A DNA stretch of 64,000 nucleotides from Coffea arabica. Lineage: Eukaryota; Streptophyta; Magnoliopsida; Gentianales; Rubiaceae. This document shows positions 24,852 to 56,364 of the stretch, in pieces. The translations under genes were made by a program, and so were the position numbers. The notes below the pieces were generated by a model. That model had not been told where the DNA came from. It searched no databases and was given only the letters and a program-made list of their open reading frames with translations. How positions within the stretch are numbered: the stretch's first letter is position 1; each line of letters starts with the position of its first letter. Location of the stretch: the NCBI RefSeq assembly GCF_036785885.1, contig NC_092317.1:932501-996500 (forward strand). Reading direction: 5' to 3'.

Positions 24852-27800
24852 ATGGCAACTGCAACTATGGCGACTGCAGCTGGTGCTGCTGCTCTCTTGT
24901 ATTATACATTGAATAGAAAAATAGTGTCCAGTACCACTAAGAGAGATGATGATGAAGATAGTGGTGGTGTGGACACACAAACTCATTCAGGGATTGATCG
25001 AGTTTCAAATAGGCTCATACAAGCTCCTGCAACATGGTTAGAGACAATTTCAACGTTATCTGAGACACTAAGGTTTACATATTCTGAGACTCTGGGAAAG
25101 TGGCCCATTGGTGATTTGGCTTTCGGAATCAGCTTTCTGTTAAAGAGGCAGGTAAGGTTTTTGTTCTTTATTGCAAGTTGGCATCAATATGCTTGCCCGT
25201 TATTGATGATTGGTGTAATAAGCCTATAGTTCGAGAACTTGTTGATTTTAAGAAATAAAAAAAGAGTTGATGATTGATAGGGACTTTAGTTGTTATTACG
25301 AGCATGTGAATGTGTTTGCAGGGAAATTTACACGTTGGAAGCGTATTTGGAGGGAATGATAGCCATCAACTCAAAGGACCTGAAATTACATTGGAGCTTA
25401 GACATCTCTTGAACTTGTTGACGCTTTGTTGGCATTTTTCCAAAAAACCATTTCCACTGTTTTTGGAGGAGACGGGCTTTTCCCAAGAAAATGTTCTTCT
25501 CCAAGAACCTAAGGCCGGAGTAAGTTATTTAAATGTTTCCATGGTGATGAGCTAATCATAAATCCCTTCTATTTGTCAAGTTGGGAGTCGATGCTGACCA
25601 AGATCCTTGTATGCCATTGCTTTCTTTCCATAGTTTCTACATCTTGACAAGATTATCCTTTTGTTGTTCCTGTATCTAGCTGGGCTTGATACAGTTGGGT
25701 GATAGATGAAATAGAGTGTATTCTGATGTCTTAAATGTTCACTTTTTTTGCAAGTGAGAGACTGTAGCCGAAAGACATACAGAAATCTTGTTTTGTCCCT
25801 GAAGAAATGCTAAACATTTTATTGTTTTGCAGATACTGAAACCGGCTTTTACAGTTCTGGTTGATCAAAATTCAAAAACATTCCTCTTATTGATTCGTGG
25901 AACACACAGTATCAAGGATACTCTGACAGCTGCTACTGGAGCAGTAGTACCTTTCCATCACTCTGTCGTGTGTGAGGGAGGAGTCATCAATTTGGTTTTG
26001 GGTTATGCACATTGTGGGATGGTTGCAGCAGCTCGCTGGATTGCTAAACTTGCAACTCCTTGTCTCCTTAGAGCCCTCAACAATTATCCTGAGTATAAAC
26101 TTAAGGTATGTGACATGTTGGATGGTGTTTGATTCCATAAGCTGGTCCTCAATAGATGCTTTGCTTGGGTTTCATTATTCATATGATAAAATCAAAATAC
26201 TGGATGAATATTGGCTCATGGTAATATAGTTCAGTGATGACTTGGGTTTGGGAGGTATAAGATTGTATATAGAACACAACTAATCTCGTTGCAGGCTGGC
26301 AGGATAAACCTTACATGCCCGGATTGTTGTGTGTCTTAAGAAGTGGTTGATTCTAGTTTGACTTCTATGTTACTGCTGCCTTTGTTTTGGCACTAACATT
26401 CATACTGGTCAAGCCCCTCATGCTTGTGCTTTCTGATTCTTCTTAAGGCTTTTGTAGTTTAACAGATAAGATATGACTGGTGTTGCAACTTATTCGTGGC
26501 AGCTACTCGAGTTTGTAGATCTTTCTGTGTACACCATATAGCTAGGCATAATTTCTTATTCATAGTGTGTGTGGCTGGGCTTGTAATGATAAAATCAAGT
26601 TGTTTTGTCTGGTTACAGATTGTAGGACATTCTTTGGGTGGTGGTACTGCAGCTCTTTTAACTTATGTATTGCGTGAGCAGAAGGAACTATCAACAGCTA
26701 CGTGTGTAGCATTTGCTCCAGGTTATTGTCTTGCTTTTCTACCAGGAACGTGAGGTTTTTGTTGATTTCTAATGATTCTTTGCTTCTAGCTACGTTTTGT
26801 TTTTCTTCATAATTGTGCTAACTTTATGATGAGGAAAAGAGAGTTGCTTTAGATCTCACGCAATGTTCAATGCAGCTGCTTGTATGACATGGGAATTGGC
26901 TGAATCTGGCACTGAATTCATTACTTCTGTAATAAATGGAGCTGATCTGGTGCCAACATTCTCTGCTGCTTCAGTGGATGACCTTCGTGCTGAGGTCAAT
27001 TCTTGAATCTGATTCCTTGTCTTGTCATACTAGCTGAATTTCTTTGTGCCCTTTTGCTTTCAACGATGAAGTATTTTGGTTTCTGTTAAAGTGGTTGACT
27101 TTGTGGTTGTATATGTAGTTTACTTATGATGCGTTTCTTGCCGGTATTCTACCTGCCTTCTCATTTCTGTTTAGATATTACTGTCAAATTCTCTTTGCAC
27201 TAATTTTAGTTCTATTAGGGTACTCTGTATACATCTATTTTGATGGATTTCATCAATAAGTGATGATCCAGTATTGGTAATTATGCATCTAGAGTTGCTT
27301 TTGAGTTTACTTTAGTGTTTCCTGTATTCAAGAGTAGAATTTTGTGTAATTATTCATTGGGACATGCACAATAAGTTGGTTTCCGATAGTAAAGTTAAGA
27401 ATGTATAACTGATTGTCTCTTTTTTCAATAAGCACCTCTATTCTGCATGAGTCCTCAATTGTGTGGCAATTTTTTTAGCTTGGATAACCTTGATCTTCCT
27501 CTAAACCATTGATTAAGACTGACTTCCTTTGGCAAATCGTTGTTGTAGTGATGGCTATAACGTTGATCTGGTAGAATGTTCTGGTACTTTTGAAAATTAA
27601 ATAATAATCTCACACGTCTATGATGGCCTGATAAGTGTCATCTGCATACGATCATTGCTCTTTAGATTGTTGTATTGCATGTAAATTTAAACAAATGACA
27701 TTTTCTGATTTCAGACATCTGTACGGTTTCGTTTTTTTTGTACCCCTTGAGTTGGGCTTTTTCTTGTTTAGAATGTTTTTGTACTCTGGGCTTTTTTATA

Positions 27801-30805: not shown

Positions 30806-30808
30806 ATG
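30801..30808 (+). promoter_or_regulatory. minimal start-stop uORF overlapping the EXO70 copy 1 ATG
   Basis: ATGTAATG: an ATG directly followed by TAA, whose last A is the first base of the annotated ATG at 30806. If transcribed, it would act as a start-stop upstream ORF and either cause reinitiation at once or favour the downstream in-frame ATG at 30833. Confidence 0.4.
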
Positions 30809-32569
30809 CTTTCTTTCCTGGCATATCTCATAATGGGATCCTCACAATCACTTCAATCAGCCGTTGAAGTAGTCTCAAACTGGCATCCGCAACCAAGAGA
30901 AAGATTAATATTCGATTGTGGTCGTGCTGAAGTCAGTCAATACCTGCAGGCGGTAGTCAAGATTCGGCAATCAGCAAGCGATAATGATGAGCTCAAAGAC
31001 ATCATTTCCATGGCTGTATCTCGGCTCAAGCATGAGTTTAGGACCGTATTGACTAGGCAAACAGATTCAGCTATGGGTTCGAATTCCACGACTGAGTTGA
31101 GCTCTTTAACTGACAGCACTGGCTATCAGTTTCGATATGAGGATTTTGTAGTGCACGAAACACCAAGTGCAGAGGTGATCCGTTATCTCCGAAGCATAGC
31201 GGAGACAATGGATTCTTGCGGGCATCTTGATGTCTGCATTGAGGTGTACAAGTCAGTGAGGAGGCCTTTCGTGAATGCAGTATTCAAGAGGCTTCGGCTT
31301 GATGAATTGAAGGCTGGGGACGTTAAGAGGTTTTTGTGGGAAGAGTTGAAGATGAAAATTGAGCGCTGGATAGAGGCTGCTAGGGTGTGTACCAAGATTC
31401 TCTTCACCAGGGAAAAGCAATTTGCCGCTCAAATATTTTCCGGGCTTGGAAGAACTGCCACTCACGAGGAATGTTTCCTATACACAGCCAAAGATGCTGC
31501 AGTTTGTTTATTCAGTTTTGCCGAATCTGTGAGCTTGAGTCACCAATCTCCAGAGAGGCTGGAGGCAGTCCTGATGCTTTACGAGGTAATGTTCTCTCTT
31601 GCGCAGGATGTTGGTGCCCTTTTCCCGTCAGAATCAGCAAAAGCTATACCAAATGGCACAGCTGCGACCCTGTCTAGACTTGAGGACGAGGTCAGAAGGA
31701 TGCTCTCGGCTTTTGAGAATGCTGTGCTTCATGAGCTTTCGACCATCTCAGATGATGGAGGCAGAGTCCATCCGCTGACAAAACACGTCATGGGGTATGT
31801 TAATCTGATGGTAGTTCATAGGAAGAATCTAGTGAGGTTGATTGTGTCAAGGCCCTCGATGACTATTAGGGGTCAAAATGTTCCAGACTCGGAGCTTCAG
31901 GACCCCACGAGTCTAAGTCCTTTAACTTTGCATTTGGTTTTGATCATAGCAGTTTTACAATCAAATTTGGAGCATAAATCCGAGTACTTCAAGGATCCTT
32001 CTTTGAGGTATCTGTTCATGATGAACAATGTGAGGTATATTGTACAAAAAATTGAGGGTTCGGGGGAACTGCAAGAGTTGATTAGTGCTGATTATCTGAA
32101 GAAGTTAGACGGGTATGTCAAAGGGGCAATGACTAGCTATCAGGAAATAACCTGTGGAAGGTTATTGAATTGCTTGAGAGACGAGGGACTCTATGTTTGT
32201 CGGTGTTTTACTTCTCAAGTGTCAATTCGTGCTTTGAGGAAAAGGATCAAGATCGTAAACATTGTTTTTGAAGAGATTCGGTCGCTACAATCATCACGGG
32301 AAGTACAAGATCTCGGGCTTCGGGAGGAGCTCCGCCGTTCCATGTTGGAGAAATTGATGCCAGCTTATGAGGGCTTTCTCATGAGGTTTAGTAGCCATTT
32401 AGAGAGTGGAAAACAGAGAAAAATGTGCCTCCAGTACGTCCAGAGGATACATGTTAAGTATTCCCTCAAGGACCTTGAGGAGTTGATCATGACGAAATTG
32501 TTTGCGCGTCATCGGCTACCTCCATCATCAGACGGCCCAGTTGAGAACTCTCATCTAGGAGGTGGTTAA
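30806..32569 (+). CDS. EXO70 exocyst subunit, tandem copy 1 (single exon, 587 aa)
   Basis: EXO70 binds plasma-membrane phosphoinositides and helps the exocyst tether secretory vesicles. The frame is uninterrupted. After a short variable N-terminus, AVSRLKHEFRTVL (about 70-82) is the conserved linker block. ERWIEAARV begins the EXO70 C-terminal domain (about 185-575). HPLTKHVMGYV, YLFMMNNVRYIVQKI and LREELRRSMLEKLMPAYEGF are family hallmarks. At 587 aa it is a little shorter than typical plant EXO70 (600-700), lacking much of the N-terminal rod. The single exon is normal for most plant clades. The ATG at 30806 is preceded by an overlapping ATGTAATG, so initiation could instead be at MGSSQS (30833). 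It is the first of four related copies in the same direction. Clade assignment is not possible by eye. Confidence 0.92.
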   Translation: MLSFLAYLIMGSSQSLQSAVEVVSNWHPQPRERLIFDCGRAEVSQYLQAVVKIRQSASDNDELKDIISMAVSRLKHEFRTVLTRQTDSAMGSNSTTELSSLTDSTGYQFRYEDFVVHETPSAEVIRYLRSIAETMDSCGHLDVCIEVYKSVRRPFVNAVFKRLRLDELKAGDVKRFLWEELKMKIERWIEAARVCTKILFTREKQFAAQIFSGLGRTATHEECFLYTAKDAAVCLFSFAESVSLSHQSPERLEAVLMLYEVMFSLAQDVGALFPSESAKAIPNGTAATLSRLEDEVRRMLSAFENAVLHELSTISDDGGRVHPLTKHVMGYVNLMVVHRKNLVRLIVSRPSMTIRGQNVPDSELQDPTSLSPLTLHLVLIIAVLQSNLEHKSEYFKDPSLRYLFMMNNVRYIVQKIEGSGELQELISADYLKKLDGYVKGAMTSYQEITCGRLLNCLRDEGLYVCRCFTSQVSIRALRKRIKIVNIVFEEIRSLQSSREVQDLGLREELRRSMLEKLMPAYEGFLMRFSSHLESGKQRKMCLQYVQRIHVKYSLKDLEELIMTKLFARHRLPPSSDGPVENSHLGGG

Positions 32570-33095
32570 ATGCAACACCTGGCAAGATTTAGCAGCAGAG
32601 AATGTAACTTTTCTCCAGTTCTTGAAAATTGCCTGCACTATTAGATGAAATGCCAGGTTAAGCTGTATGTTGGAAATAGTGGTATACAGTGAAGCCCTTC
32701 TTTTACGTGTGAGAATAATTCTTTTACTAGTCTGCTCAGGCATGTAATATCCCTTGCGCATTCATGTTGAATTTAACGTCTAGAAAATATCTGCACAAAT
32801 TCTTTTGTAACCTTTATCATTCCAGTAATAAATGACAGATGATGTTTATGAATGTCTGGAGTGATATATATGGTACTTACTGCGATCAGTTCCGATTAGG
32901 TTCTAATCCACTCTTTTCGGGAATAATAGCAATTAAGCAGAGGATTACATTTCTTTTCTTGAAAGACTCTTAGAAGTTGGAAGCGTACAGATTTGATTGG
33001 TCTGGATGATTTTACATGAATAATGTAACGCTATTGCGATCCAAAAGAAAATTGATAAGTTTTTTTTTTTTTTTTTTTTTGTCTTTAGCAGCAAA

Positions 33096-33511
33096 ATGCA
33101 GCTTTATAATAGAATCCAAGGTTTATTGGATCTTACAAATGTGTCGACTACTGAGTTTATGAATCCAGATGACTTTCCAGATTCTTTTCTTCCTCAAGTG
33201 TTCCCTTTCCCCTCCCTTTCTGTCATTTTGAATTTGTCATGTATCTCACAGACTTGTCCAGTCTCCCCCTTTTCCAGTTTTCCGTGCTTCTCTAATATTT
33301 AATGTTTTCTCAGGTATCACAAAATTATTTCATCCCATTTACAACTTCTGGGAATATTCTGAAAAGCTATTGGGAGGTCCGAAGGATGAGTTTACTTGGT
33401 CGAAAATTTCAGCTTCGAACACAAATTAAATGTGATGTAGCTCCAGACTTGGAATTTGACAGAAGATCAATCAGCAAGGTTTTTGATGCAGGGGGTACTG
33501 AACAAAATTGA
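33096..33511 (+). pseudogene. unassigned gene fragment
   Basis: Two short frames could splice: one ends DDFPDSFLPQ at a GTGTTC donor near 33199, the next begins VSQNYFIPFTTSGNILKSYW after a TTTTCTCAG acceptor near 33314. No family is recognised and no further exons are visible. A T run at 33060-33080 lies just upstream, as in the remnant of an inserted sequence. It sits between EXO70 copy 1 and the decayed EXO70 copy. Confidence 0.25.
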
Positions 33512-33639
33512 AAGGAAGTGCACACGGAGAAAGGCACTGTGAATCAAAACGGAGATAAACTCAAGTGTGATTTTTGCAGTCTATTGCAGGCGGAGTCTGG
33601 AAGAAAAATCTCAGGTAACACCGAAGATCATTTCGCGTT

Positions 33640-34480
33640 CGTGGAACATCAATACCTTCTAGGCTTGCTGAGGCCATTAGGTTGACTTTGTTGGACTTTG
33701 AGGATGCTGTGCTCAACGAGATGTCTAGTGTTCCGGCACCTGGAGAGACAATTCATCGCTTGACCAAGTGTGTGATGGGCTATGTCAGTCTCAAGCAAGG
33801 ATACTCTTGAGGAGATGATCATTACAAAGCCATTAATGGTATAAGGTGAATCAACAGTTCCAGATTTGGAACGAATCCTGGAATTGGAAGGACGACGTCT
33901 TTTAGCAATCACTCTGGTCTGGATCATTAATTGTAACCTTAGGATTGAAGTTAGAGGGTAAATCCCGGAACTACCAAGCTGCATCCTAGGCACACTTGTT
34001 CATTATGAACAATGTTCGCTACATTGTCCAATGTATTCAGCAATCCGGAGAATTAACTGAGATGATCGGAGACAAATATCTGCTGCAAGTTAAAGGAAAA
34101 TATTCAGCAGGCAACAACCAGCTATTTGAGATGAACGTGGCAAAGGGTCTTGGATTGCTTGAGAGATGAAGGACCACATGTGAGTCACCTGTTCCACTCA
34201 GGGGTGTCGAACAAAATTCTGGGAGGTTCAAGAACTTCAATGCTTTGGTTGAAGATATTCAAAGACTCCAGGCAATGTGGGCAGTGCCAGATCCCGAGCT
34301 TCGTAAGAAACTTTTACGGTCCATTTTGGACAAACTGATTCCTTCCTACGGGACGTTTCTTGATCAGTTCAGAAACCACAGACAGAGAGAGAGGAAAACT
34401 ACCAAAACGATACATCGAGTACTCAGAAGAGGAACTTGAGAGCATGGTCCGGAGTTTGTTTCTGTATCACTGACGACTGG
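33640..34480 (+). pseudogene. decayed EXO70 copy (C-terminal half only)
   Basis: Pieces in different frames match the neighbouring EXO70 genes in order: RLAEAIRLTLLDFEDAVLNE, then PAPGETIHRLTKCVMGYVS, then FIMNNVRYIVQ, then MWAVPDPELRKKLLRSILDK and LIPSYGTFLDQF. The frame is broken several times by small insertions or deletions and in-frame stops. The N-terminal half is absent. It is closest in wording to copies 2 and 3. Expression as a functional protein is not possible. Confidence 0.85.
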
Positions 34481-35917
34481 AATGGAACTCTTGCAGGTGC
34501 ATTCGCAGAAATGTGGCTCTTATCTCTAGTAAAATAATTCATTATCAGGTGCAAAAATCAGAACCTGCTCTTAGCATATACTGATTCTTTTACTACTATT
34601 AGCGGCGACTTGTTTTCTCGTCTGTCATGCGGAAGTTGGACCAGCCCTCATCTGATCTGAGGCGCTGAGAAATTTCCTTACAGATGCTTTTTGGACTTTT
34701 AATGCACACAGAAAGTATCTTCATCTGTCGAGTGAGTATGCCTGCCGTAGATGTGTAAAAAAAAGGCGATTTCTGATTTTTGACTCCTCAAATGTTATGT
34801 TAGTTCGAAGATCTTCAACCCACTCGAGTGGTTTTCGCATCCCATTCTTGGGCTTCCCAGTCTCCAGACCATTTCTTAGCAGCTAACACTACAATGCTCA
34901 CAACTCAAACGACATTTTTTTCTTTAGCAGTCCATTTATCTAATCCAATCTTGTAGGAGTAATAATTTCGTCTTGCACCAAATAAAGGAAAAAAATGAAA
35001 AATCATTACGCCATTTTTAAAAGTCACAAAATAATTGTAGAACTACCATATATATATATATATATGTATGTATATATATAAACAAGAAAACTGATGAGAC
35101 TCTGGGATACGCGGAGTGTGATTACTTCTAATCTAAAGTAAGACCTGTACATTAATTAGTCCGGGCAATGTGCTGAAGTTTAAGTCAAGCCCTTGTTCAT
35201 CTTCTAGAATTTGCGCATCACACTGCCATTCACATTTTTCCTCGAAACTTCCCAAAAAAAAAAAAAAAAAAAGGACACGTAGCGTTAATTGTTATTGGGT
35301 AATGTTATTTGCACTCCAACAATCCCATTTTTACTTTAATAAGACCATATTACTCCTTCTCTAATTTCTTCTTCTTGCCTATGAGTTAACTTTACTAGAT
35401 TTTTTTCTTACATTCTAAAACCAATTAATTATTCCATTATACATTATAATGACTAATTTAAAATTGTCACTAATATGTATTATGTATTTTTCTACAAAAC
35501 CTCACAAAATTACATGATGCAAATGATCAATCTAACAATATAATATGAATAGATTCCAAACTTCAAACCCAAATAAATAAATAAATCCCAAGTTTCAAAA
35601 AGATCAAAAACTAAGTATAACTGTAATGTCTCATAAACAGGACACTAATACTTCAAAAAGTCAACTAAAAATAGTTCATATAACTACTATAGAGGGAGTG
35701 AAACTTTCTAGTACATATTTCAACAAAAGCATAGCAACGTCTAGTATCAAGATGATGCAATTGAACCTCAATTGCGCTCATCAAAATCTGCAAAATTGAA
35801 ATTGAAATAAGAATATAAAAAAAAAAAAGCTATGTAGATTTAGAAGAAGAGAAGCAAAATTTTTTGTTACCTTTTGGATGAGTACGATAATTGTACCCAA
35901 CTTTCTTGCATGTGAAC
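34481..35917. other. intergenic spacer
   Basis: No gene. Contains an AT microsatellite (35048-35079), an A run (35253-35271) and AT-rich DNA. Confidence 0.6.
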
Positions 35918-36341
35918 TAGGGCTGCAAACGAATCGAGCCGCTCGCGAGCGGCTCGAGTCAAGCTCGAGCTCGAGCTCGAGTTCAGAATATTAAGCTCGT
36001 TAGCTCGCGAACCGGCTCGCGAGCTTAGGTATATATATATTTTTTTTATTTTTATTTTTATTTAATAATAAAATTATGTATATTATATATATATATATAT
36101 TTTTTATTTTTATAGTAAAATTACGTATATATCCTTAATATTTTATTATTTATTAAGAAAAAAATATTATTTTATTTATTTTTTTAAAAATAAAATAATT
36201 ATTTTTTATTTTTTTTCGAGCTTGAGCTCGAAATTTGCCGGCTCGTCGAGTTCGAGCTCGAGCTCGAGCTTGGTAAAATTTAGTCGAGACTCGGTTCGAT
36301 TAGATCAAAGCTCGACTCGACTCGACTCGTTTGCAGCCCTA
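35918..36341. mobile_element. hAT-like MITE with TAGGGCTGCAAACGA ends (424 bp)
   Basis: The left end TAGGGCTGCAAACGA is the exact inverse of the right end TCGTTTGCAGCCCTA. The flanks ATGTGAAC (35910-35917) and TTGTGAAC (36342-36349) are an 8-bp duplication with one mismatch, as for hAT elements. The arms are rich in GAGCTCGAGCTCGAG-type words and enclose an AT-rich core. No transposase is encoded. It lies within ~450 bp of the start of EXO70 copy 2. Confidence 0.85.
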
Positions 36342-36778
36342 TTGTGAACACAAGATAAAGCAAGAGAAGAGATTAGAATAGCGATAATTGTGCCCAATTT
36401 TCATTATCAAGACAAAAATAGAGTAGTGTGAGTGCAGATAAAGTAAAGGGAGTGCAAATAAAATTACCTATTGTTATTTTCCATATTTCTTTTTCCAGTT
36501 TTGTACGCTGACGAGACGCGGAACAACGTGCGATGATCAAAAGTGACCGGACAACTGCTCTTTCCGTTCAGTTCCGTTCTCCCCCTCTCCGCTCCATCTC
36601 CAATTAGGGTTCTGCTCCTCATTAACTTCCTCTCCTTTGACCTTTCCGCTAACTGAAATCACTATGCTGATTGTGGAGTGGTCGCCATAAAAAATTACGT
36701 TCTTGGTTGAATTTCCACTTGGGTTTAGTCTGACCATCATAATTACCAACTGTTTCCTAATTCAAAAGTTTGCTAGCT

Positions 36779-38461
36779 ATGAATTCTATTACTGTGATGG
36801 AAGCTTCAAATTCAAACTCTCGTGATTTGTCGAGCCCAACGGAACCCGTTTACCAGAAAATTCATCTCGGCCTTGGTTATGATGGGACCAAGTCGCCCGA
36901 CGCTAGCTCCCCTGATCAAACTCCTGCTGAAGCAAATGAAGCTATGGAAATTGCAGTGGATCGGCTCAAGAACGATTTCCAAGACATATTGCATCTGCAG
37001 GTCAAAGGGGTTGCTGCTGCCCTCACTGATCCCAGCTCCACCACTGACTCGACTTGTTCATTTAGCCTTTGCCTGTCGGCTCTGGAGGAGAGTAGTTATT
37101 CAGGGTACCATGGTCCAAGTCCGAAAGAAATTGCCCATCTCAGATCAATTGCCCAGAAGATGAATGCAAAAGGGCATCTTGATAAGTTGGTCCATGTGTA
37201 TGTCACTGAGAGGAAGTCTTTCATGTATGCACATTTCCGAAAGCTTTGGGATGAGAAGTCTGGAATCTGTGATGTCCGGAGGCTGGAGTGGGGAGTTCTA
37301 GAGGCGAAAATAATGCGCTGGATTCGAGCAGTGCATTGTTGCCTCCGGGGGATTCTCCCATTTGAGAAGCAGCTTTCAAATCATGTTTTTAGAGGTATTG
37401 GTAATGATGCTATTGGTGAGCCTTGCTTTTTTGCGATTGTTACTGATTATGTAGCTGAATTACTTGATTTTGCTGATGCTCTTAGCTCCTGTCGTCCATC
37501 ACCTGAGAAGTTACAAGAGATTTTAGCCCTTTATAGAAGTTTTTCTCGTTTGAGGTCGGATATTAACTCTGTGTTTGAGTCAGAAGCTGGCCAGACGATT
37601 CGTGTTCGTACTGATTGTATACTGTCCAGGCTTGGTGGTGAAGTGGTGAGCCTTGCTCTTTCAGATTTTGAGGAAACACTGCTTCGCGAGCTGTGTAATT
37701 ATCCCATTCCTGGAGGGGCAATTCACCGCTCGACCGAGTATGTGATGGGATACGTGACGAGTCTGGTTTCAGAAAGTAAGGAAACTCTGACGGAGTTAAT
37801 AACTTCCAAGCCTTCAACGACCATAGGAAATCTAATGATCTCAGATTTGGATGTCAAGGAATTGGAAGGGCGCGCTCCTTTGGCAGCACATTTTTTGTGG
37901 ATTATTATCGTGTTACATCTCAATTTGGAGCGTAGATCCAAGTGTTACAAAGATTCCTTGTTGGCAAATTTGTTCATGATGAATAATGTTCACTACATCG
38001 TCCAGCAAATTAGAAGGTCTGCAGCATTGACAGAGATGATTGGGGACAATTATATCAACAAGCTTACTGAAAATGTGCAGGATTCAATGACTAATTATGT
38101 GAGTGGAACTTGGGATGTGCTTGTGTACTGTTTGAGACATGAGGGACTGAATGGCAGCTGGGGTTTCACTGTCGGTTCTGGTGTGTCAAGGAAAGCTCTA
38201 AAATTAAGATTCAAGAACTTCAATACTCTCTTTAAAGAAACACATCGGACGCAAATGATGTGGGAAGTACCGGACCTTGAGCTCCGAACGAAGCTTCACC
38301 AGTCTATTCTAGATAAGCTGATTCCTCCGTATAGGAATTTTCTCGGGAAATTCAGGAGCCTAATAGACAGGGGAAAGCAATCAGGAAAGTATATCATGTA
38401 CTCTGCTGAGCAATTGGAGGCTAAGGTTTTGGGTTTATTTTCCTATTCCAGCTACCTCTAA
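36779..38461 (+). CDS. EXO70 exocyst subunit, tandem copy 2 (single exon, 560 aa)
   Basis: Same family and predicted role as the copy at 30806. The frame is intact. AVDRLKNDFQDIL (about 59-71) is the conserved N-terminal block, HLRSIAQKMNAKGHLDK follows, and the EXO70 domain runs from about residue 160 (LEWGVLEAKIMRWIRA) to near the end. GAIHRSTEYVMGYV, NLFMMNNVHYIVQQI and LRTKLHQSILDKLIPPYRNF are hallmark blocks. The N-terminal ~60 residues are low-complexity and not shared with copy 1. The first ATG in frame, at 36779, was taken as start; the in-frame methionine at 36797 is an alternative. It is clearly more like copy 3 than copy 1 (shared MRWIRA, RSPEKL, APLAAH/TPLAAH, LERKSK/LERRSK blocks). 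Confidence 0.92.
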   Translation: MNSITVMEASNSNSRDLSSPTEPVYQKIHLGLGYDGTKSPDASSPDQTPAEANEAMEIAVDRLKNDFQDILHLQVKGVAAALTDPSSTTDSTCSFSLCLSALEESSYSGYHGPSPKEIAHLRSIAQKMNAKGHLDKLVHVYVTERKSFMYAHFRKLWDEKSGICDVRRLEWGVLEAKIMRWIRAVHCCLRGILPFEKQLSNHVFRGIGNDAIGEPCFFAIVTDYVAELLDFADALSSCRPSPEKLQEILALYRSFSRLRSDINSVFESEAGQTIRVRTDCILSRLGGEVVSLALSDFEETLLRELCNYPIPGGAIHRSTEYVMGYVTSLVSESKETLTELITSKPSTTIGNLMISDLDVKELEGRAPLAAHFLWIIIVLHLNLERRSKCYKDSLLANLFMMNNVHYIVQQIRRSAALTEMIGDNYINKLTENVQDSMTNYVSGTWDVLVYCLRHEGLNGSWGFTVGSGVSRKALKLRFKNFNTLFKETHRTQMMWEVPDLELRTKLHQSILDKLIPPYRNFLGKFRSLIDRGKQSGKYIMYSAEQLEAKVLGLFSYSSYL

Positions 38462-39721
38462 AACGATGTATGACGTTAGTTATCATGTACAAAAAATAGT
38501 TTGCTCCCAAGTGCATCTACTGCAGTTCGCCACACCTATTATATAGTATGTTCGACTGTTCTCAATGGTAGATTGGCAAGGAGGCAGGCAGTGTATTGCA
38601 TGTTGGATGGGATCAGAACATAGAACGACAAGGACAAGGACCGTTTTATTTTTCTTCAGCATTTACAAGTTCATTCCATTCAATTGAAGAAGCTAACTGA
38701 ATGTCCATTCTGTCGTCTGTCTATATAGTTTGCACACTCTTTGCCTGGTCGGTTTTCTGTTGTAGTTGTGTTCAATCTATGTAGATGTTCGCCTGTCTCC
38801 CATTTAGACCAAATGCAGCTTAATACCTAACAACTTTGTGCTTTTAACCTGCTATTAGCTAATATGCGTCGTTCAGTTTTCTCACACTTAGCGTAAGTTT
38901 GTACTTTCCAGATGTGGTGATGGCTTGATGGAAAAAAAGGGCTCTGGACTCGAACCACTACGGATCAATCACAAAGTTGTTCAGTCAAACACGGGATAGA
39001 CTTCCTGCTGTTACTTTGCAGAACCAAAACTTTGTAAAAGTTTCCTGCTCATTGAAAAGTAATTTGTTATGCCCATAATTTGAATGATTCCACTTTTAAC
39101 TAGCAGTAGTAATTACTAACCTTCAAGAGAATTCAAGTCCATAAGCACCTCCCTGAGTTTTTTCTTTTCTGGAACAATAAGTTGTGTTTTGTTTTGTTTT
39201 CTGTCTTTTGCCACGATGAGACTTCGCAACATTCGCATCGAAGCTTCGTACTATTAAAAAATCAAACCACCTGGTTTTAGGGATCCCTCTTTAGTGGAGA
39301 AATCTCCATGTGGTGTAAAGCCACGCAAAACTGCTGAGTCAGAAAAGGGACGGTGAAGAAACCAGCAGGTAATGCGGTAAACGATGACGCGAAGCGTGAA
39401 CAGGCTGCTGCTGACTTTGAATAGAAAATTGGTGGCCATTGAGTGGAACGGAATATTGAATAGTAATAAAGAGGCAGCAGAATTTTGGTTCCCCCCAACC
39501 CCACGACAAAATTTACGGTACAAAATTGCGGAAAAGTCAAGTGCAAGGAAAAACATATGGAAAACAACATATGAAGTCACATTCTAAGACTTAAAAACTT
39601 GTATACAAGCACTAATTATAATGCAACAGTAACACTTCTAGCTATAGCAAACAGATTGATAGATGTAATTTGGAATTAATAGTTAAAGTCTTGCAACGAT
39701 GCAATTGAAGATGCAGTTAAT
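38462..39721. other. 3' flank of EXO70 copy 2
   Basis: Probable 3' UTR, then spacer. A minus-strand frame beginning MATNFLFKVSSSLFTLRVIV near 39437 reads like a basic organelle-targeting leader, but it ends after 61 codons and no second exon was found. No supported gene. Confidence 0.4.
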
Positions 39722-39734
39722 AACAAAAGATGCA

Positions 39735-39891
39735 CCATCACCCTCTTTGATGGTGCTGGAAATCAGGGGTTCAACCCCTGTCTCCTTCAAATTTGTCACA
39801 ATATGTGGCTGATCTTAGTTGATCATCTCCCCTTGCCTCTTTCTCCTAGATTAGGCTAGTTTAGATTATAGGACAAAAAAAAAAAAAAAAC
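39735..39891 (+). mobile_element. tRNA-derived SINE with 13-bp target duplication
   Basis: The stretch CAGGGGTTCAACCCCTG contains a pol III B-box (GGTTCAACCCC) about 40 bases from the start. A 17-base A tail closes the element at 39874-39890. Direct repeats AACAAAAGATGCA flank it (39722-39734 and 39892-39904). All three features fit a short SINE inserted in plus orientation. Confidence 0.8.
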
Positions 39892-39904
39892 AACAAAAGA
39901 TGCA

Positions 39905-41099
39905 ACAGTCCATCTTCGCATTCCAACAACACTAATGAATGTAACATTAGTTGTTAGAAAGAGACAAGAACTATCATTTGGAAAAGAAAAAAAAAACTCA
40001 AATTTGTTGAAAAAGATGAAAGGCGTTGAATAGTAAGTCCTGGGAAAAGAGATATCAAAGGCCTACATGTATATTGTCCAAACGAACCATGAATTATGTC
40101 CAAAAGGATAAATATTGAAGAATGTTTGGCACCCTTGTTAGGTAGATGAAAAAGACGAGTATTCAAATTAAGTGCTTTCATATATGATATGTATCATATA
40201 GGGGGAGCAAAATTTAACACGAGGCATTATTGAGTCGAGAAATCCTTGGTCTAAATGAAACTAGTTTGTGAATGTTATTGACAAGAATATATTTTGTCTT
40301 TACAAATGTTTGGCGACTGGCACATACTATGGTAATGTCAAAATTATAATGAACATATTCATGAATAAACAATATAAGCTAAAATATTGTAAAAAAAAAA
40401 AAAAAAAAAAAGAAAGAAAGTGCGACTATGTAAAATAATGAATGTAGGAAGTTTATATTAGAATAATAGCCAACAACTAATGCATGTTATGATTAACTAA
40501 ATTGAATAGGGATTACTTTACAGGATTGTTAATGGGTTCTGTGAGTTAGGTTTTAGTAAGTCAAAACCCAGCTAACAAAGCAAATTGAGTTCTGGATTTT
40601 TGAGTTATGGACTTGTCTTATGAATCTTGTACTTGCCTCACATTAAAAAAAAAAGAAAAATTCTCAAACGCAAATAAAAACAAAGTTACGCGAGGCTACA
40701 CTTTTTCTGTCAACTCATACACCTAATTAGATTAGAAATACTTAAGAGATCAGCGATTAAACGATTCAATTAAAAGTAATCTAAGAGGCCTCACAAAAAA
40801 ATCTACGTCCCGCCAATTGGTACGTGAGGCTACACGACTCCACATAAAATCAGACACCTACTTGGTGTACTTTCGTTCGTTCGACTTAGCAGTGGGTCGC
40901 ATCAGAATATTTTAAACTTTGTTCCGGTTGCTAACCGGACATGTGATGTGATCCTTGCCCAGGGCCCGCCTGGACTTCAGTCACTGGCTATGCGTTACAC
41001 GTTCCGCTTGACTCCAGCAGCTTGATCCTCCACCATAGAGTATCCTGGTCTTGGCTGCTGCTTCTTCTGATGATTATCATTAGACGCCAAGCTAGTCAA
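39905..41099. other. intergenic spacer
   Basis: AT-rich, with an A run at 40391-40411. No supported gene. Confidence 0.6.
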
Positions 41100-41395
41100 C
41101 TCCGCACCCTGGTTCAAAGGATTTGGCCAAGTCGTCACCGTCTCAGTCTCGACGCTCTCGATGCGATATCGAAACGGTACGATTTTGCGATATTTGACTC
41201 TCCAAAATATCAGAAAAGAGTTGAAACGGTCGAATCATATCGAGTCGTTCTGAATCAACTCGAATTTTTATTATTTTTACTAATTTTTAATTATTTTTAT
41301 TTATCATATTATTTTTAATAATTTTTAAAATATTAAATATTTTAAAATTTCGCATCTTATGGCCGCGATTGTAACCGCGACAGTGACTTTGAATC
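41100..41395 (+). repeat. dispersed repeat, copy A
   Basis: Shares with 57568-57870 a stretch rich in CG-containing words (GAAACGG, CGAATC, TCGAGTC), then TCAACTCGAATTTTTATTATTTTTACT-like DNA, an AT-rich block, and AAATTTCGC...CCGCGAT. The two copies are diverged. No terminal repeats or coding potential were found, so the class is unknown. Confidence 0.55.
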
Positions 41396-41620
41396 ACGCG
41401 CGCTCGCACGCATGTCTATCTTGACTTCACCTTTCCTGGCCACTTCCAGAGTCATGATCTCTCAGCGTCTAAATGCTCAATAGATATATTTCCCACTCAG
41501 ACAACTGAAGCCTCTAGATTACTAATTATTCATCAAGATTCGGTTGTTAAATTCCATTAAGTTATGAAACTGGAGGACTGATCACCAGCACTTCCAGTTC
41601 CAGCTGATTTTTAATTTAGT

Positions 41621-43150
41621 ATGGCCATTAATACGCCGGAGCCAAGAACCAGCACCGAGACGAGTTCGTTTACTTTAGGTACGTCAGGGATATTGGAGGA
41701 GAATTTTGAGTCACGAAGTAATGATTTCCAGCCACAGGCCGAAACCGATCTCTTGGCAGCACTACTGGCTGGGGAATCAATGAGTGACCTTAGTCTGAAT
41801 GCGACAGAGCTTCATGATGTCAGGTCTAAAGCAGAGAAGATGGACTCAGAAGGGTGTCTCGGACAGTTCGAGGCTGAATACGTGAGTGAAAGGAAGTGTT
41901 TCATCAAATTACGCTTTCAAAACCTCTGGGATCAGAACTTACAAATGGGAACTGCTGATACCCAGAAGTTGGAGTGGGAAGTTCTGGAGGTAAAGATCAT
42001 GCGCTGGATTCGAGGAGCACGTTGTAGCCTTAGGGATATCCTTGCATTTGAGAAGCGACTCTCAATGTATGTTTTTCAAGGTCTAGGAAACGCCAGTACC
42101 GCACGCTCGTGTTTCATTGAGATAGTTAAAGACCCCGTAGCTCGGTTACTTGACTTCCCGGAAGCTCTATGCTCCTGTCGTCGATCACCGGAAAGGTTGC
42201 GAAAGATGTTACTCTTACATACGAGTTTCTCTCATCTCATCTCGGATATTAAGGCTTCCTTTGGAGCCTCGGAAGAAGAGATTAGGAGCATTCAAGCACG
42301 CGCTGACGTTATACTTTCCAGGCTGGGTGAAGTGGTTAGACTCACTCTCGTAGATTTTGAGGCTGCGATTCTCGGCGATCTCGACGAGTGTCCGGCTCCA
42401 GATGGGGCAATTCACAGGTTGACAAAGTACGTGATGGATTATATCATCGGCCTTACAGATTTTCAGGAATCTCTAATGAAACTAATACTCTCAAAGCCTT
42501 CAGTCAGTTCCGGGGATGGACTGAGTTCCAAATTGGAGGTTGCAGAACTGGAAAGGCAAACACCTTTGGCAGCGCATTTGTTGTGGACCATTATCGTCCT
42601 GCTGAATAACTTGGAGCGCAAGTCCAAATCCTATCGAGATCCCTCGCTGTCCAATTTGTTTGTGATGAATAATATTCACTACATTGTCCAAGGAATTAGG
42701 AAGTCCAGAGTTCTGAGACAGATGGCAGGGTGTTATCTAAACAAGCTGACAGAAATTGTGCGGGAGGCAATGTATGGGTACCTAAAAGCTAGTTGGGATC
42801 AGGTCATGTATTGTTTAAGAAGCCAGGGATTGCGTGTTGTGAGCTGGGGTTGCATTTCCTGGGTGTCAAAAAATGTTCCGAAAGACAGACTCAAGAAATT
42901 CAATAAGCTGTTTGCAGAAATCCATTTCGCCCAAACAATGTGGACTGTACCAGACCTTGGCCTACGGGAGGGACTTCAACGGTCCATACGGAATAGACTA
43001 ATCCCGACCTATGAGAGCTATCTCAGAAACTTCGGGAGCCACATTATGAGCGGAGAGGGTTCTTCAGAGAGGTGTATCCTTTACTCTGTTGAGGAACTGG
43101 AGGACAGGGTCTTGGAGTTGTTCACCTGTCCTCTTCTTCCTCTGGAGTAA
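41621..43150 (+). CDS. EXO70 exocyst subunit, tandem copy 3 (single exon, 509 aa)
   Basis: Same family as the two copies upstream, with an intact frame. It is the shortest: the block corresponding to AVxRLKxxF in the others is absent and the N-terminus begins MAINTPEPRTSTETSSF. From DVRSKAEKMDSEGCLGQF onwards it aligns along the whole length, with LEWEVLEVKIMRWIRGARC, GAIHRLTKYVMDYI, SNLFVMNNIHYIVQGI and LREGLQRSIRNRLIPTYESY. The C-terminal domain, which carries the membrane-binding surface in known EXO70s, is complete; the N-terminal part that usually contacts other exocyst subunits is reduced. That may mean altered assembly (inference). An ATG at 41621 opens the frame. Confidence 0.92.
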   Translation: MAINTPEPRTSTETSSFTLGTSGILEENFESRSNDFQPQAETDLLAALLAGESMSDLSLNATELHDVRSKAEKMDSEGCLGQFEAEYVSERKCFIKLRFQNLWDQNLQMGTADTQKLEWEVLEVKIMRWIRGARCSLRDILAFEKRLSMYVFQGLGNASTARSCFIEIVKDPVARLLDFPEALCSCRRSPERLRKMLLLHTSFSHLISDIKASFGASEEEIRSIQARADVILSRLGEVVRLTLVDFEAAILGDLDECPAPDGAIHRLTKYVMDYIIGLTDFQESLMKLILSKPSVSSGDGLSSKLEVAELERQTPLAAHLLWTIIVLLNNLERKSKSYRDPSLSNLFVMNNIHYIVQGIRKSRVLRQMAGCYLNKLTEIVREAMYGYLKASWDQVMYCLRSQGLRVVSWGCISWVSKNVPKDRLKKFNKLFAEIHFAQTMWTVPDLGLREGLQRSIRNRLIPTYESYLRNFGSHIMSGEGSSERCILYSVEELEDRVLELFTCPLLPLE

Positions 43151-44105
43151 TGCTCCCAGAAGTGTATTCTTAGAGGATTGTATTCTTACCCGGTCGTTGC
43201 ACTTCAAGAAAGATACAGAATGAAATCATAATCTTAGATGCTGCAGCATTAGTTTAGTTGAACGAATGAGATTATAATCTTAGATGCTTGGAGGCCTAGT
43301 ATTATTTTTGTCATTCATTCATGCCAAATGCTGCTGCTTATGATCTTGTTCTTGTTATGTATTAGTAGTTTCTATAAAGCTTTTGGTCAGCTTATCAGCT
43401 TTTGTTGTCAGCTTTCTCAGATGCTTCAACTGTTGGAATTGGAAGAATATACACTAGTTCCGTACTTTTATTAGTGTTCCATCTCCACCTCATAGCCTAA
43501 GTAAAACGGTTACTGCTCCCTCCGTCACCGCAATTCATCCCATTTTGATGAACACGTTGGTTAAACTCTTCCCGCTTAGTTTAATTCCAGCAAGAGAAGC
43601 TTTGGCTGGGGAGGAGAACACCGTCAATTAAATCTTCTTCGAATTCGCAGTAACCTTTACGCATTGAACCCAAAGTGCCTTAATATCTCGCAAAGACCAG
43701 ACCGAACTCAGAAAAGTCTTTTGGCCTTCTAGGCACCCATCAGCAGTCGGGACCATCACAAACAAACGCGTGACTTTTGAGCATTGACTTTGACCAAAAG
43801 CTTTTCAGTTTTTACTTTTTACCCCAAGTTAGTTTCCACTGAAATTGCAGAGAGAGATTCCGGTGGACCTGACCGGGCCGGGCTCACCCCTTTCCAGTCC
43901 ACCTGTTAAGTACTAAGTACTACTGTACTTAGTCCTAGATTAGTTCTTCTTCTTCTTCTCCTTCCAGTTTCATGATCAATCATTTTAAACCAAATAAACC
44001 TAATTTAAGAGCGTTCGCATTTGATAGTTTCCTAATAATTCCTAGCTTGCAGTTTCTTGCCTCGTTGATATCTATAGCCGATTATACAAACATAGTTTGA
44101 CCGCC
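43151..44105. other. spacer and promoter of the NLR gene
   Basis: 3' flank of EXO70 copy 3, then the NLR promoter. Besides the paired W-boxes noted separately, a CTT repeat lies at about 43946-43961. No further gene. Confidence 0.5.
43784..43795 (+). promoter_or_regulatory. paired W-boxes upstream of the NLR
   Basis: TTGACTTTGACC contains two directly adjacent TTGAC(C/T) cores, about 310-320 bp upstream of the NLR ATG. WRKY factors bind such sites in defence-gene promoters. The core is short enough to occur by chance, but adjacent pairs are less common. Confidence 0.4.
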
Positions 44106-46970
44106 ATGTCTGATCCAATTCTATCCGCGGTCTTAACCCAGCTGGGTTCCATCCTGGAGACCCAAGTCCGCCAAGAATTGAAACTCGTGGTGGGTGTGGA
44201 CAAAGATATCGAGAACCTTAAAACTACCCTCCGTTCCATCGAAGCCGTGATGGTGGATGCTGAGAAGAAACAAGTCAAGGACAACTCCGTGGAACAATGG
44301 CTGCAGAGGCTCCAAGAAGTCGTATACGACATGGATGATGTATTGAACGAGTGGAACACGGCACTTCTGAAGACAGAAACTCAGGAACTCGAAGATTCTG
44401 CAACCCCTCACAAAAAGGTGTGCTTTTTCATTTCCTCACCTTGCCTTTGCTTTAGCCGGGTTGCTAAACGTCGTGACATAGCCCTTAAGATTCAGGTTAT
44501 CAATAGAAATTTGGATCTAATTGCCGGAGAAAAGGATAGGTATAATTTCACGACTGTCACCGGGTATGAAGGGCCCGTGAGAGCTAAAACCACCTCTTTT
44601 GTTGATGTGGCTAAAGTCCGAGGTCGAGATGGAGACGAGGCTACTCTTGTGGACCAATTGCTTATGCAGGGTAGTCGTGGAATGAGGCCCCTCCACACCA
44701 TTTCTATTGTGGGTATGGGCGGGATTGGAAAGACGACCCTTGCCCAATTAGTCTACCGTTCTGAACAGGTGAAAGCTCATTTCCCTACCATGTCGTGGGT
44801 TTGTGTTTCTGAACCTTTCGATGATCTGAGAGTTGCTAAAGCAATCGTTGAATCGCTTGAAGGGAGTGCACCAAACTTATTCGAACTGGAAACTGTATTG
44901 GGTCGTCTGAGAGACCGCATTAAGGGACAGAAATTCCTTCTTGTGCTGGATGACGTATGGACCGAGGATTATGAAAGGTTAGAACCCCTGATAAGCTCCC
45001 TTAGCAGTGGTGCCCCTGGTAGTAAAGTTTTAGTCACTACGAGGAATGAGAGGGTTGCTCAGATGATGGAAAGTAGCTACCTGCTGCGTTTGGGGGAATT
45101 GACTGAGGAGGATTGCTGGTCTCTCTTCAGTCAATTAGCTTTATCTGAAAGAAGCCAGAAAGACATTCAAGAACTGAAAGATATTGGTATGAGAATAGCT
45201 AGCAAGTGCAAGGGCTTACCTCTAGCTGCAAAAACTATAGGGAGTTTAATGCGCTTCAAAACTTCACTTCAAGATTGGAAGAATGTTCTGGAGAGTGATA
45301 TGTGGGACTTGGAAGCAAAAAAAGGTATTTTTCCTCCTCTGCTGTTGAGCTATTATGATTTGCCTTTACCAGTGAAAAGGTGTTTCTCGTATTGTGCCAT
45401 CTTTCCACAGGATTACGAGATAGAGGCTGACAATATAATCAAGCTGTGGATGGCGCAAGGTTATCTTAGTGCGAATGGAACTGGGGAAATGGAAGCAACT
45501 GGTAGGGAGTACTTGAACACTTTAGTGATGAGGTCCTTCTTCCAAATGAAAAAGGATAAGGATAAGGGTCGGGATAATGCTACTAGGTTGAAGATGCATG
45601 ACATGGTTCTTGATTTAGCACGGTATCTCAGAAAAAATGAATCCTATGTCATGGAGGTTGATGGCAGATTGGTTCACCGGATCAATTCATCCTGTGATAA
45701 GGCCCGTCATTTGACATTGATACGTTCAGAAGACGTCCATTTCCCCTTGTCCATAGGCAATGTAGGAAAACTACACACGTTTTGGGTTCAATCATTTTAT
45801 GACTCCCCACCAATTGTTAGTGAGGTTGACAGAATCTCACCTGATTTATTTGACGGCTTGGTGCATCTCAAGGCTTTGGATTTGAGTCGTAACAGGTTGT
45901 GTGAACTCTCAGAGGAGATAGATAAATTGACAAATCTGAGGTATCTCAACTTATCCCATAATCCATTTTGGGAATTGCCTGAAACAGTTTGTGATTTATA
46001 TAACTTGCAAACCTTGAAGCTTGTTGCATGCGACCATCTTAGGCAAGTACCTAAAGGGATTGGCAAACTAAGAAACTTGAGGCATCTTGAGATTGATCGT
46101 ACAGGTAGTCTAAGGACATTGCCTAAAGGGATAGGAATGCTGCCCTCTCTTCAAACACTGACCAAGTTTGTTCTAGCTGGCGTTACTGATGGTGAAGAAA
46201 CAATTTGCACAATAGGAGATCTCAGTAGTCTGAACCAGCTTCACGGCTGTCTCAGAATAGAAGGTCTGGGTTATGTAGCAAATGCAGATCAAGCAGAGAA
46301 AGCTCAGTTGAAGAACAAGAAACACTTGGCCGAATTGCATTTGGATTTTAATCCTCAACTGCAAGCTGGGGGGAGAACAGATGTTGCTGATGCTCTTCAA
46401 TTGTGCTCGGATTTGCAAACATTGCATCTCAGTTTCTATGGTGGTGCTCGCCTCCCCGTTTGGATGACATCACTAAATAATTTGCGAAAGCTCCGACTTC
46501 AAGATTGTCCAAATTGTACCACTTTGCCTCCTTTGGGTAGGCTTGCGTCCCTTGAAAATCTCTGCTTAGAGAACATGCATGGATTGAAGCTTATTGGCAC
46601 TGAACCTTTTGGAGGACCTGATTTGGGTGGATGCATGCAGACGAATGGTGCACCGTCAACAGCTGCACTTGCCATATTCCCGAAGTTGAAGAAGCTCAAA
46701 TTTGCAGGCATGAGTAGTTGGGAAAAATGGGACATGACCTGCAAAGATAGAGGCGCTAAAGAGGGAAATCCGAGTATTATGCCATATCTTCGCTATTTGA
46801 AGCTTTCAGATTGCAGCAAGCTGAACACGCTGCCGGATCACCTGCTCGAGAAGACTCCCATACGAAAGTTGTACATCCACAACTGTCCACTTCTGCAGCA
46901 ACAATACCAAAAGAGAATAGGGGAGCACTGGACGAAGATATCCCACATCTCTAGGGTCCGAATTTCATGA
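44106..46970 (+). CDS. CC-NB-LRR (CNL) immune receptor, RGA type, single exon, 954 aa
   Basis: An intracellular receptor for pathogen effectors that acts as an ATP/ADP switch. An Rx-type coiled-coil domain covers about residues 1-150 (WLQRLQEVVYDMDDVLNEW is the EDVID-equivalent region). The NB-ARC domain follows: P-loop GMGGIGKTT (203-211), kinase 2 LLVLDDVW (278-285), GSKVLVTTRN, GLPLAAKTIG, CFSYCAIFPQDYEIE, and MHD at about 497-499. LRRs run from about 560 to 940 (LKALDLSRNRL, LRYLNLSHNPF, LPKGIGMLPSLQTL, LPPLGRLASLENL, LKKLKF). All switch motifs are present and the frame is unbroken, so it looks functional. The start ATGTCTGATCC at 44106 has a good context (CCGCCATG). No integrated extra domain is seen. 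It lies directly after the EXO70 cluster in the same direction. Confidence 0.95.
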   Translation: MSDPILSAVLTQLGSILETQVRQELKLVVGVDKDIENLKTTLRSIEAVMVDAEKKQVKDNSVEQWLQRLQEVVYDMDDVLNEWNTALLKTETQELEDSATPHKKVCFFISSPCLCFSRVAKRRDIALKIQVINRNLDLIAGEKDRYNFTTVTGYEGPVRAKTTSFVDVAKVRGRDGDEATLVDQLLMQGSRGMRPLHTISIVGMGGIGKTTLAQLVYRSEQVKAHFPTMSWVCVSEPFDDLRVAKAIVESLEGSAPNLFELETVLGRLRDRIKGQKFLLVLDDVWTEDYERLEPLISSLSSGAPGSKVLVTTRNERVAQMMESSYLLRLGELTEEDCWSLFSQLALSERSQKDIQELKDIGMRIASKCKGLPLAAKTIGSLMRFKTSLQDWKNVLESDMWDLEAKKGIFPPLLLSYYDLPLPVKRCFSYCAIFPQDYEIEADNIIKLWMAQGYLSANGTGEMEATGREYLNTLVMRSFFQMKKDKDKGRDNATRLKMHDMVLDLARYLRKNESYVMEVDGRLVHRINSSCDKARHLTLIRSEDVHFPLSIGNVGKLHTFWVQSFYDSPPIVSEVDRISPDLFDGLVHLKALDLSRNRLCELSEEIDKLTNLRYLNLSHNPFWELPETVCDLYNLQTLKLVACDHLRQVPKGIGKLRNLRHLEIDRTGSLRTLPKGIGMLPSLQTLTKFVLAGVTDGEETICTIGDLSSLNQLHGCLRIEGLGYVANADQAEKAQLKNKKHLAELHLDFNPQLQAGGRTDVADALQLCSDLQTLHLSFYGGARLPVWMTSLNNLRKLRLQDCPNCTTLPPLGRLASLENLCLENMHGLKLIGTEPFGGPDLGGCMQTNGAPSTAALAIFPKLKKLKFAGMSSWEKWDMTCKDRGAKEGNPSIMPYLRYLKLSDCSKLNTLPDHLLEKTPIRKLYIHNCPLLQQQYQKRIGEHWTKISHISRVRIS

Positions 46971-55737: not shown

Positions 55738-56364
55738 ATGTCCGTGACAACGGTAATCACCGACTCAATCGTGATGACGACGACGGCGTCGGCCACCGAT
55801 TCACAAACGGTGACGGCGAAACTGGCAGCAGCCACAATTGATGTGGATTTCGCAAAATGCGATTGCTGCGGACTGACGGAGGAATGCACCTTGGCGTATA
55901 TCGAAAGAATTCGAGAGCGGTATCAGGGGAAATGGATATGCGGTCTGTGTGCGGAGGCGGTGAAGGACGAAGTCTTCCGATCCAAAAGGCTAATAAGCAC
56001 CGAAGAAGCAATGAGCCGTCACTTCAATTTTTGCAACAAGTTCAGGTCCTCCGGACCGCCTCCCGACGCCACCGGCCATTTAATCTCTGCTGTCAGGCAC
56101 ATCTTGAAGAAGAGTTTAGATTCTCCCAAATCCATGCTGCGCTCCGTGCCCTGTAGTCCGACCGAGAGCGCTAGGGTCGGTGGGGGGTTGACTCGGTCGG
56201 AGAGCTGCATTCCGAGTTTGAATTTTGTTGACTCGGCGGGGTTGCATGGGGTTGAAGGAGAGTCTGAACGACAATCGTTGGACATTGGTACAGAAACCGA
56301 TAGTGCCCTAGTAGTAGAAGTAGACAGCGCAGTTTCTTTTGAATTTCGGCAGGGACACCGCTAG
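55738..56364 (+). CDS. DUF1677 family protein (208 aa)
   Basis: Function unknown; the family is plant-specific and small, with a cysteine-rich core. The core is at about residues 40-100: CDCCGLTEECTLAYIERIRE, then WICGLCAEAVKDE, then EEAMSRHFNFCNKF. These CxCC and CxxC pairs could bind metal. A Ser/Pro-rich region (SLDSPKSMLRSVPCSPTE) follows, with possible phosphorylation sites. The C-terminus is acidic. The N-terminal ~35 residues are Thr/Ala-rich. Start at 55738 was chosen because the frame upstream lies in the leader intron. There are no coding introns and no damage. Confidence 0.9.
   Translation: MSVTTVITDSIVMTTTASATDSQTVTAKLAAATIDVDFAKCDCCGLTEECTLAYIERIRERYQGKWICGLCAEAVKDEVFRSKRLISTEEAMSRHFNFCNKFRSSGPPPDATGHLISAVRHILKKSLDSPKSMLRSVPCSPTESARVGGGLTRSESCIPSLNFVDSAGLHGVEGESERQSLDIGTETDSALVVEVDSAVSFEFRQGHR

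Follow-up and report, generated by a model that had tools for sequence, protein, structure and literature searches.

Exo70 pairs with Exo84 through the CorEx helix (PMC9258809), and changes at the N-terminus of plant Exo70 abolish Exo84 binding and release the protein from the exocyst (PMC12626893). The N-terminally truncated Exo70FX12 acts in immunity, and variation in N-terminal loss among grass EXO70s is reported to be confined to Exo70D and Exo70FX, with D, E and H listed elsewhere in the same paper as N-terminally reduced clades (Holden et al., PMC9258809). EXO70 proteins are also guarded by immune receptors, as in the TN2-EXO70B1 pair (PMC4305288) and the Pii/AVR-Pii/OsExo70F2-F3 system (PMC9618136), and the literature describes ZAR1 as a singleton that is conserved, with ZRK baits that have diversified (PMC10561179). 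In the top search results of the open-licence literature, we found no report of an EXO70 array adjoining an NLR outside the grasses.

The locus considered here lies in a stretch of 64,000 nucleotides (the window; C8:932501-996500, with contigs numbered from C1 and short positions in Mb) of a genome of 1.198 Gb in 131 contigs. It holds three intact EXO70 genes (E1, E2 and E3), a decayed copy and a CNL. Our preferred reading, to which we give a probability of roughly 0.7, is that the EXO70s form an old tandem array of common origin with an upstream EXO70 gene (P), that they have lost most of the N-terminal segment that joins EXO70 to the exocyst and work outside it, and that the CNL beside them is independent.

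Gene content of the locus on two haplotypes

All five genes lie on the plus strand (Table 1), between the first ATG of E1 (30806) and the end of the CNL stop codon (46970). The inventory in the earlier note, with three intact and one decayed EXO70 genes and one intact CNL in a common direction, proved exact to the coordinate by ORFs, Pfam and tblastn. Its statement that other genes are absent between the members is borne out for ORFs of at least 150 aa, since a scan of ORFs, which small spliced genes would escape, yielded no further one in this interval. The second Met of E1 is the more probable start, giving 578 aa instead of the 587 aa from the first ATG, because the ORF of its allele on C7 begins there. 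Stops interrupt the decayed copy, which runs through three frames, and its similarity to P is limited to residues 334-614 of 628, roughly the C-terminal 45%. Elsewhere in the window, Pfam matches mark exons of two minus-strand genes, one with a von Willebrand factor A domain (11487-11894) and one for an aldehyde dehydrogenase (62944-63390).

Table 1. Features of the EXO70-CNL locus, its surroundings and its counterpart on C7 (positions without a contig are those of the window)
Feature	Position	Strand	Description
P	C8:911747-913633		full-length EXO70, 628 aa; ~50 kb upstream of the array
Class 3 lipase	matches within 25803-26753		left of the array; Pfam
E1	30806-32569	+	intact EXO70 ORF, 587 aa; weak Exo70_N remnant
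Decayed EXO70	~33625-34467	+	tblastn with P and E2; frameshifts and stops
E2	36779-38461	+	intact EXO70 ORF, 560 aa; Exo70_N unmatched
E3	41621-43150	+	intact EXO70 ORF, 509 aa; Exo70_N region unrecognisable
CNL	44106-46970	+	intact CC-NB-ARC-LRR ORF, 954 aa
DUF1677 gene	55738-56364		right of the CNL; Pfam
E1 allele	C7:951483-953219		intact, 578 aa
Decayed copy allele	C7:954280-954884		stops, as in the C8 copy
E2 allele	C7:956736-958418		intact
E3 allele	C7:964085-965614		intact
CNL allele	C7:966721-969585		intact

The three intact EXO70 proteins carry the full Exo70_C domain (Pfam), with 264.9 bits for E1, 290.6 for E2 and 269.6 for E3, covering positions 2-370, 2-369 and 2-370, respectively, of the 372 in the profile. 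A structure model of E3, built from an alignment of only three proteins of the window, has a mean pLDDT of 52.5, too low for the model to be useful. The CNL encodes Rx_N, NB-ARC, winged-helix and LRR domains (Pfam), the LRRs including R13L1/DRL21, in a single intact ORF, and P-loop, kinase-2, GLPL and MHD motifs can be read by eye in its translation. Pfam finds no integrated domain in it. A fusion of NLR and EXO70 at the locus is ruled out, as E3 and the CNL are separate ORFs, the CNL starting 955 bases past the E3 stop. Nor is there a fusion among the 62 Exo70_C matches listed for the genome, which sit in open frames, read without introns, of at most 767 codons.

Most EXO70 matches have a partner on an adjacent contig (C7/C8 and C1/C2, for example), which suggests that the assembly contains both parental haplotypes. 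Indeed, C7 carries the same five genes in the same order as C8, all intact except for the decayed copy, with the E2-E3 spacing about 2.5 kb longer.

Origin of the array and the shortening of its N-termini

Common origin is evident from a tree of 22 sequences, comprising 20 of the 21 collected from this genome and two PDB chains, the latter in their aligned stretches only. One allele per locus was intended, although the C21:3.42 and C22:13.51 sequences may be allelic, and the tree leaves out a 197-aa fragment (C22:13.47) and the intron-bearing EXO70s at C3/C4:8.0 and C11/C12:5-6 Mb. In it P, E1, E2 and E3 form one clade with a set of four shortened sequences from C3, C21 and C22 (support 100/100). 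OsExo70F2 lies apart from this clade and groups with the gene at C14:1.03 Mb (100/99), which is, by that grouping, an F-clade EXO70. The F-clade EXO70 was matched near the end of C9 (C9:54646297) and near the start of C14 (C14:1031381), with none among the matches listed on C10 or C13, a placement that reflects either an inter-haplotype translocation or an assembly misjoin.

The branches within the clade are markedly unequal. Summed from its base, they measure ~0.16 for P, ~1.11 for E1, ~1.10 for E2, ~1.42 for E3 and ~1.8 for the C22 copies. E1 is placed beside the long-branched C3/C22 group with support of only 91/92, and this placement may reflect long-branch attraction. No EXO70 match at E 0.01 occurs between P and the array in C8:915001-932500 or in positions 1-30805 of the window. 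E2 and E3 are 48% identical in amino acids with a dS of ~1.2, E1 and E2 have a dS of ~2.6, and the remaining four pairs are saturated. A recent duplication is ruled out by dS values of ~1.2 or more, and by this measure the duplications are old. The earlier note had proposed rapid change after duplication; the long branches, together with N-termini eroded relative to P, agree with change, but the duplications are old and the allelic dN/dS values given below overlap those of other EXO70 pairs.

Perhaps P, the sister gene, is an EXO70D. This assignment is by elimination, because the other clades appear to be taken: we presume that the N-terminus at C2:50.1 Mb is EXO70B-like and that other genes are C-, E-, G- and H-like. 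EXO70E is possible as well for P, since E is also among the clades listed as N-terminally reduced (PMC9258809).

It has to be asked whether the array is part of Exo70FX itself, the grass clade with which it shares N-terminal loss, long branches and growth in copy number (PMC9258809). We consider such membership very improbable. The array groups with P and apart from OsExo70F2, in a tree with OsExo70F2 as its only F or FX reference, and Exo70FX is reported as specific to the Poales (PMC9258809). Moreover, the genome has 42 TIR matches, many of them clustered on C15 and C16, which argue against a monocot on the strength of TIR domains, NB-ARC linkage aside. To our knowledge, TIR-NB-LRR genes are absent from monocots.

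The N-termini shorten stepwise. Ahead of a shared landmark there are 183 residues in P, 128 in E1, 121 in E2 and 67 in E3, compared with 85-93 in the C3, C21 and C22 copies (the counts are unusable for C22:62.3 and C7:0.27, which are cut at the ends of their stretches). Since P is itself shorter than the comparison genes at C14:1.03 (268), C14:4.19 (222) and C2:50.1 (204), part of the loss predates the array, and shortening is not special to the array, since C19:4.1 of a different clade has a single residue before the landmark. Pfam tells the same story, with an Exo70_N match of 55.9 bits in P, a weak one of 32.1 bits in E1 (cut-off 23.9) and none at E 0.001 in E2 or E3. Thus the loss of an N-terminal block, which the earlier note assigned to one copy, is real but extends to E1, E2 and E3, all of which are shorter than P. 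E2 is homologous to P from P residue 54 onwards, and a search of the window with the first 110 residues of P recovers E1 (1.6e-11) and E2 (2.8e-6). The same search finds nothing credible in the DNA upstream of E3 (best other E 0.39), so that a hidden first exon is unlikely for this gene. The net charge of chosen N-terminal stretches is -12 in P, 0 in E1, -5 in E2 and -7 in E3, to which we give little weight because the ranges are arbitrary. Given the disappearance of Exo70_N and the published role of the N-terminus in Exo84 binding, the best inference is that E2 and E3 have lost exocyst binding.

An EXO70 copy at C22:13468169-13470959 (L045:3169-5959) is split into one N-terminal fragment and C-terminal fragments, between which lies a SUMO-like short ORF (Rad60-SLD, 24.8 bits, cut-off 23.8). 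One of the shortened C22 EXO70s is preceded, at a distance of about 3 kb, by ORFs that by eye are reverse-transcriptase-like (L044:25-1753) and are perhaps linked to its movement.

Allelic constraint and the adjacency of the CNL

Such long branches could simply mean weak constraint, the extra EXO70s drifting to loss in a relaxed or dying array. One copy is already dead on both haplotypes, and third-position GC (GC3) is lower in the array (0.44-0.50) than in P (0.62). However, the comparison of the haplotypes, aligned over positions 29351-52719 of the window and counted in matching stretches of more than 150 bases, makes this explanation quite improbable. The four intact ORFs differ by 80 mismatches and not a single indel in 7,842 aligned bases (0.8-1.25% mismatch per ORF), whereas the non-coding remainder, over 11,066 aligned bases, has 479 mismatches (4.3%) and 226 indel events (20.4 per kb). 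In the decayed copy, 679 aligned bases contain 25 mismatches (3.7%) and 4 indel events, and 160 bases are unaligned. The four ORFs are thus kept as genes, under constraint. E1-E3 by themselves have no indel in 4,977 aligned coding bases and 1.05-1.25% mismatch, and their pooled nonsynonymous share between haplotypes, 33 of 56, is below the neutral expectation of 77.6% (p 0.0013), as are those of E1 (p 0.028) and E2 (p 0.014) taken singly. By this ratio E3 (11/16, p 0.28) and the CNL (16/23, p 0.23) do not differ from neutral; for these two it is the lack of indels and the low divergence that indicate constraint.

Allelic dN/dS is 0.38 for E1, 0.32 for E2, 0.64 for E3 and 0.65 for the CNL. The array values are unremarkable, as they overlap with those of three other EXO70 pairs (0.18, 0.46 and 0.58). 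These baselines are P, C2/C1 (50.1/55.7 Mb) and C12/C11, kept from six pairs after three (A, C14/C9; B, C13/C14; G, C2/C1) were dropped for wrong ORFs. Positive selection is unsupported, the counts between haplotypes being small. Diversification of NLRs is usually focused on the LRRs. The small counts in the CNL run the opposite way, with 10 nonsynonymous and 2 synonymous differences between haplotypes in the CC-NB part (residues 1-519, window 44106-45662) and 6 and 5, respectively, in the LRR part.

The CNL is 98% identical to its C7 allele and at most 45% identical to every other of the 50 matches listed, the best full-length one reaching 41%. Relatives were sought among 48 scored of 2,753 first-look candidates; nine of these relatives (eight from C9/C10, one from C1) resemble L031 at 74-85% and form one group apart from the CNL in a tree. 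By these comparisons the CNL is a lone lineage outside any close NLR cluster. Its best match among solved structures is 6j5t, 'Disease resistance RPP13-like protein 4' (E 2e-64), which we take to be ZAR1. No credible match to this CNL is found near the related shortened EXO70s in four 10-kb stretches, three on C22 and one on C3 (best E 0.055), and none lies beside P in 25.5 kb. About 4 kb upstream of P is an LRR receptor-like kinase (C8:905737-908012; L054:2737-5012), whose LRR, LRRNT_2 and kinase domains (Pfam) are divided between two frames, presumably of the pollen-receptor-kinase type by its looks.

How surprising is one such neighbour? The NB-ARC density is 1.34 per Mb (1,610 first-look candidates in 1,198 Mb, 124 of them scored, hence not a count of confirmed NLRs), and our own count puts the EXO70 loci of a haplotype, with the broken ones, at about 23. 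With an even spread, ~0.06 NLRs in total would be expected by chance within 1 kb either side of these loci, and perhaps 0.3 if genes are assumed to make up a fifth of the genome, both figures resting on the unconfirmed candidate counts. A single EXO70-CNL adjacency is not clearly beyond chance. The earlier observation that an intact CNL follows the EXO70 cluster stands for both haplotypes, but the arrangement is not repeated at the other loci of the EXO70 clade covered here (three on C22, one on C3, and P).

It is possible that the locus is a guard or decoy unit, in which one or more shortened EXO70s would be effector targets or baits monitored by the lone CNL, linkage keeping matched alleles together. 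The identical order and intactness of the genes on both haplotypes would suit this, as would a lone CNL lineage beside a diversified EXO70 array, and the guarded EXO70s and the ZAR1 singleton mentioned at the outset provide precedents. Yet the four shortened EXO70s on C3/C22 are without an NLR in their 10-kb stretches, the adjacency is near chance expectation, the allelic dN/dS of the EXO70s is not above that of other pairs, and the CC-NB counts of the CNL are too few to judge. In rice, all Exo70s are reported to differ at the residues of the AVR-Pii pocket (PMC9618136). At these residues E1 differs from P by H for Y and E3 by I for V, and E2 has T, L and S where P has A, V and L; however, the pocket is variable in other EXO70s of the genome too. 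We regard this reading as unlikely, and the guard/guardee or co-regulated unit put forward in the earlier note finds no support in the C3/C22 copies, which have no NLR in the 10 kb around them that were covered, the lack of fusions among the listed matches or the overlapping dN/dS values. A more specific version, in which a non-grass, FX-like radiation outside the F clade supplies exocyst-escaped EXO70 baits to an old, lone CNL guard in a ZAR1/ZRK-like module, seems to us distinctly unlikely. If the CNL did depend on the array, the locus would be a naturally linked bait-and-receptor set. We know of none of the EXO70/CNL kind outside grasses and Arabidopsis.

A more appealing scenario, and the one we prefer, is that EXO70 paralogues sharing their origin with P have lost most of the segment that would join them to the exocyst. 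Since Exo70_C is kept and this segment is mostly lost, E1-E3 would most likely bind membranes or cargo independently of the exocyst, and the CNL would stand beside the array by ordinary gene order, most likely as an independent receptor. The weak Exo70_N match retained by E1 speaks against exocyst escape for that copy, and the CNL-E3 adjacency on both haplotypes, which a functional link also predicts, speaks against independence of the CNL.

Relation to described systems

In Arabidopsis, EXO70B1 and the NB-ARC protein TN2 are functionally linked; TN2, however, is a TIR-NBS protein without LRRs (PMC4305288), whereas the receptor here is a CNL. The array lies apart from the C2:50.1 gene, which we take for EXO70B. 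An EXO70 serves as effector target or bait of a CNL in the OsExo70F2/F3-Pii system (PMC9618136) and in the barley NLR with an integrated Exo70 (PMC13291817), but these systems involve the grass F clade and a NOI domain or an integrated Exo70, and Pfam finds no integrated domain in the CNL here. ZAR1 with its ZRKs likewise pairs a single CNL with baits from a diversified family, as the EXO70s here might be; the baits of ZAR1 are kinases (PMC10561179), in contrast to the putative EXO70 baits of this locus.

Of the two halves of the locus, the array is the more interesting. P, taken by elimination as an EXO70D, would belong to a clade that in grasses shares variable N-terminal loss with FX (PMC9258809), and the array differs in having lost more of the N-terminus than P. 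P, E1, E2 and E3 form a graded series at one locus outside the F clade, which makes the idea of exit from the complex testable in one genome, and plant EXO70 provides a case study of a subunit leaving its complex and gaining new roles. The closest likeness is to Exo70FX, represented by barley Exo70FX12/Pur1 at Rps8, with its N-terminal loss, fast divergence and growth in copy number, and with one locus at which an EXO70 lies close to an immune receptor gene (PMC9258809). In contrast to Exo70FX, the array groups with P in a plant that is probably not a monocot, and its neighbour is a CNL instead of the receptor kinase found there. Judging from its sequences, the array resembles grass Exo70FX without being a member of it and would parallel it by a separate route.
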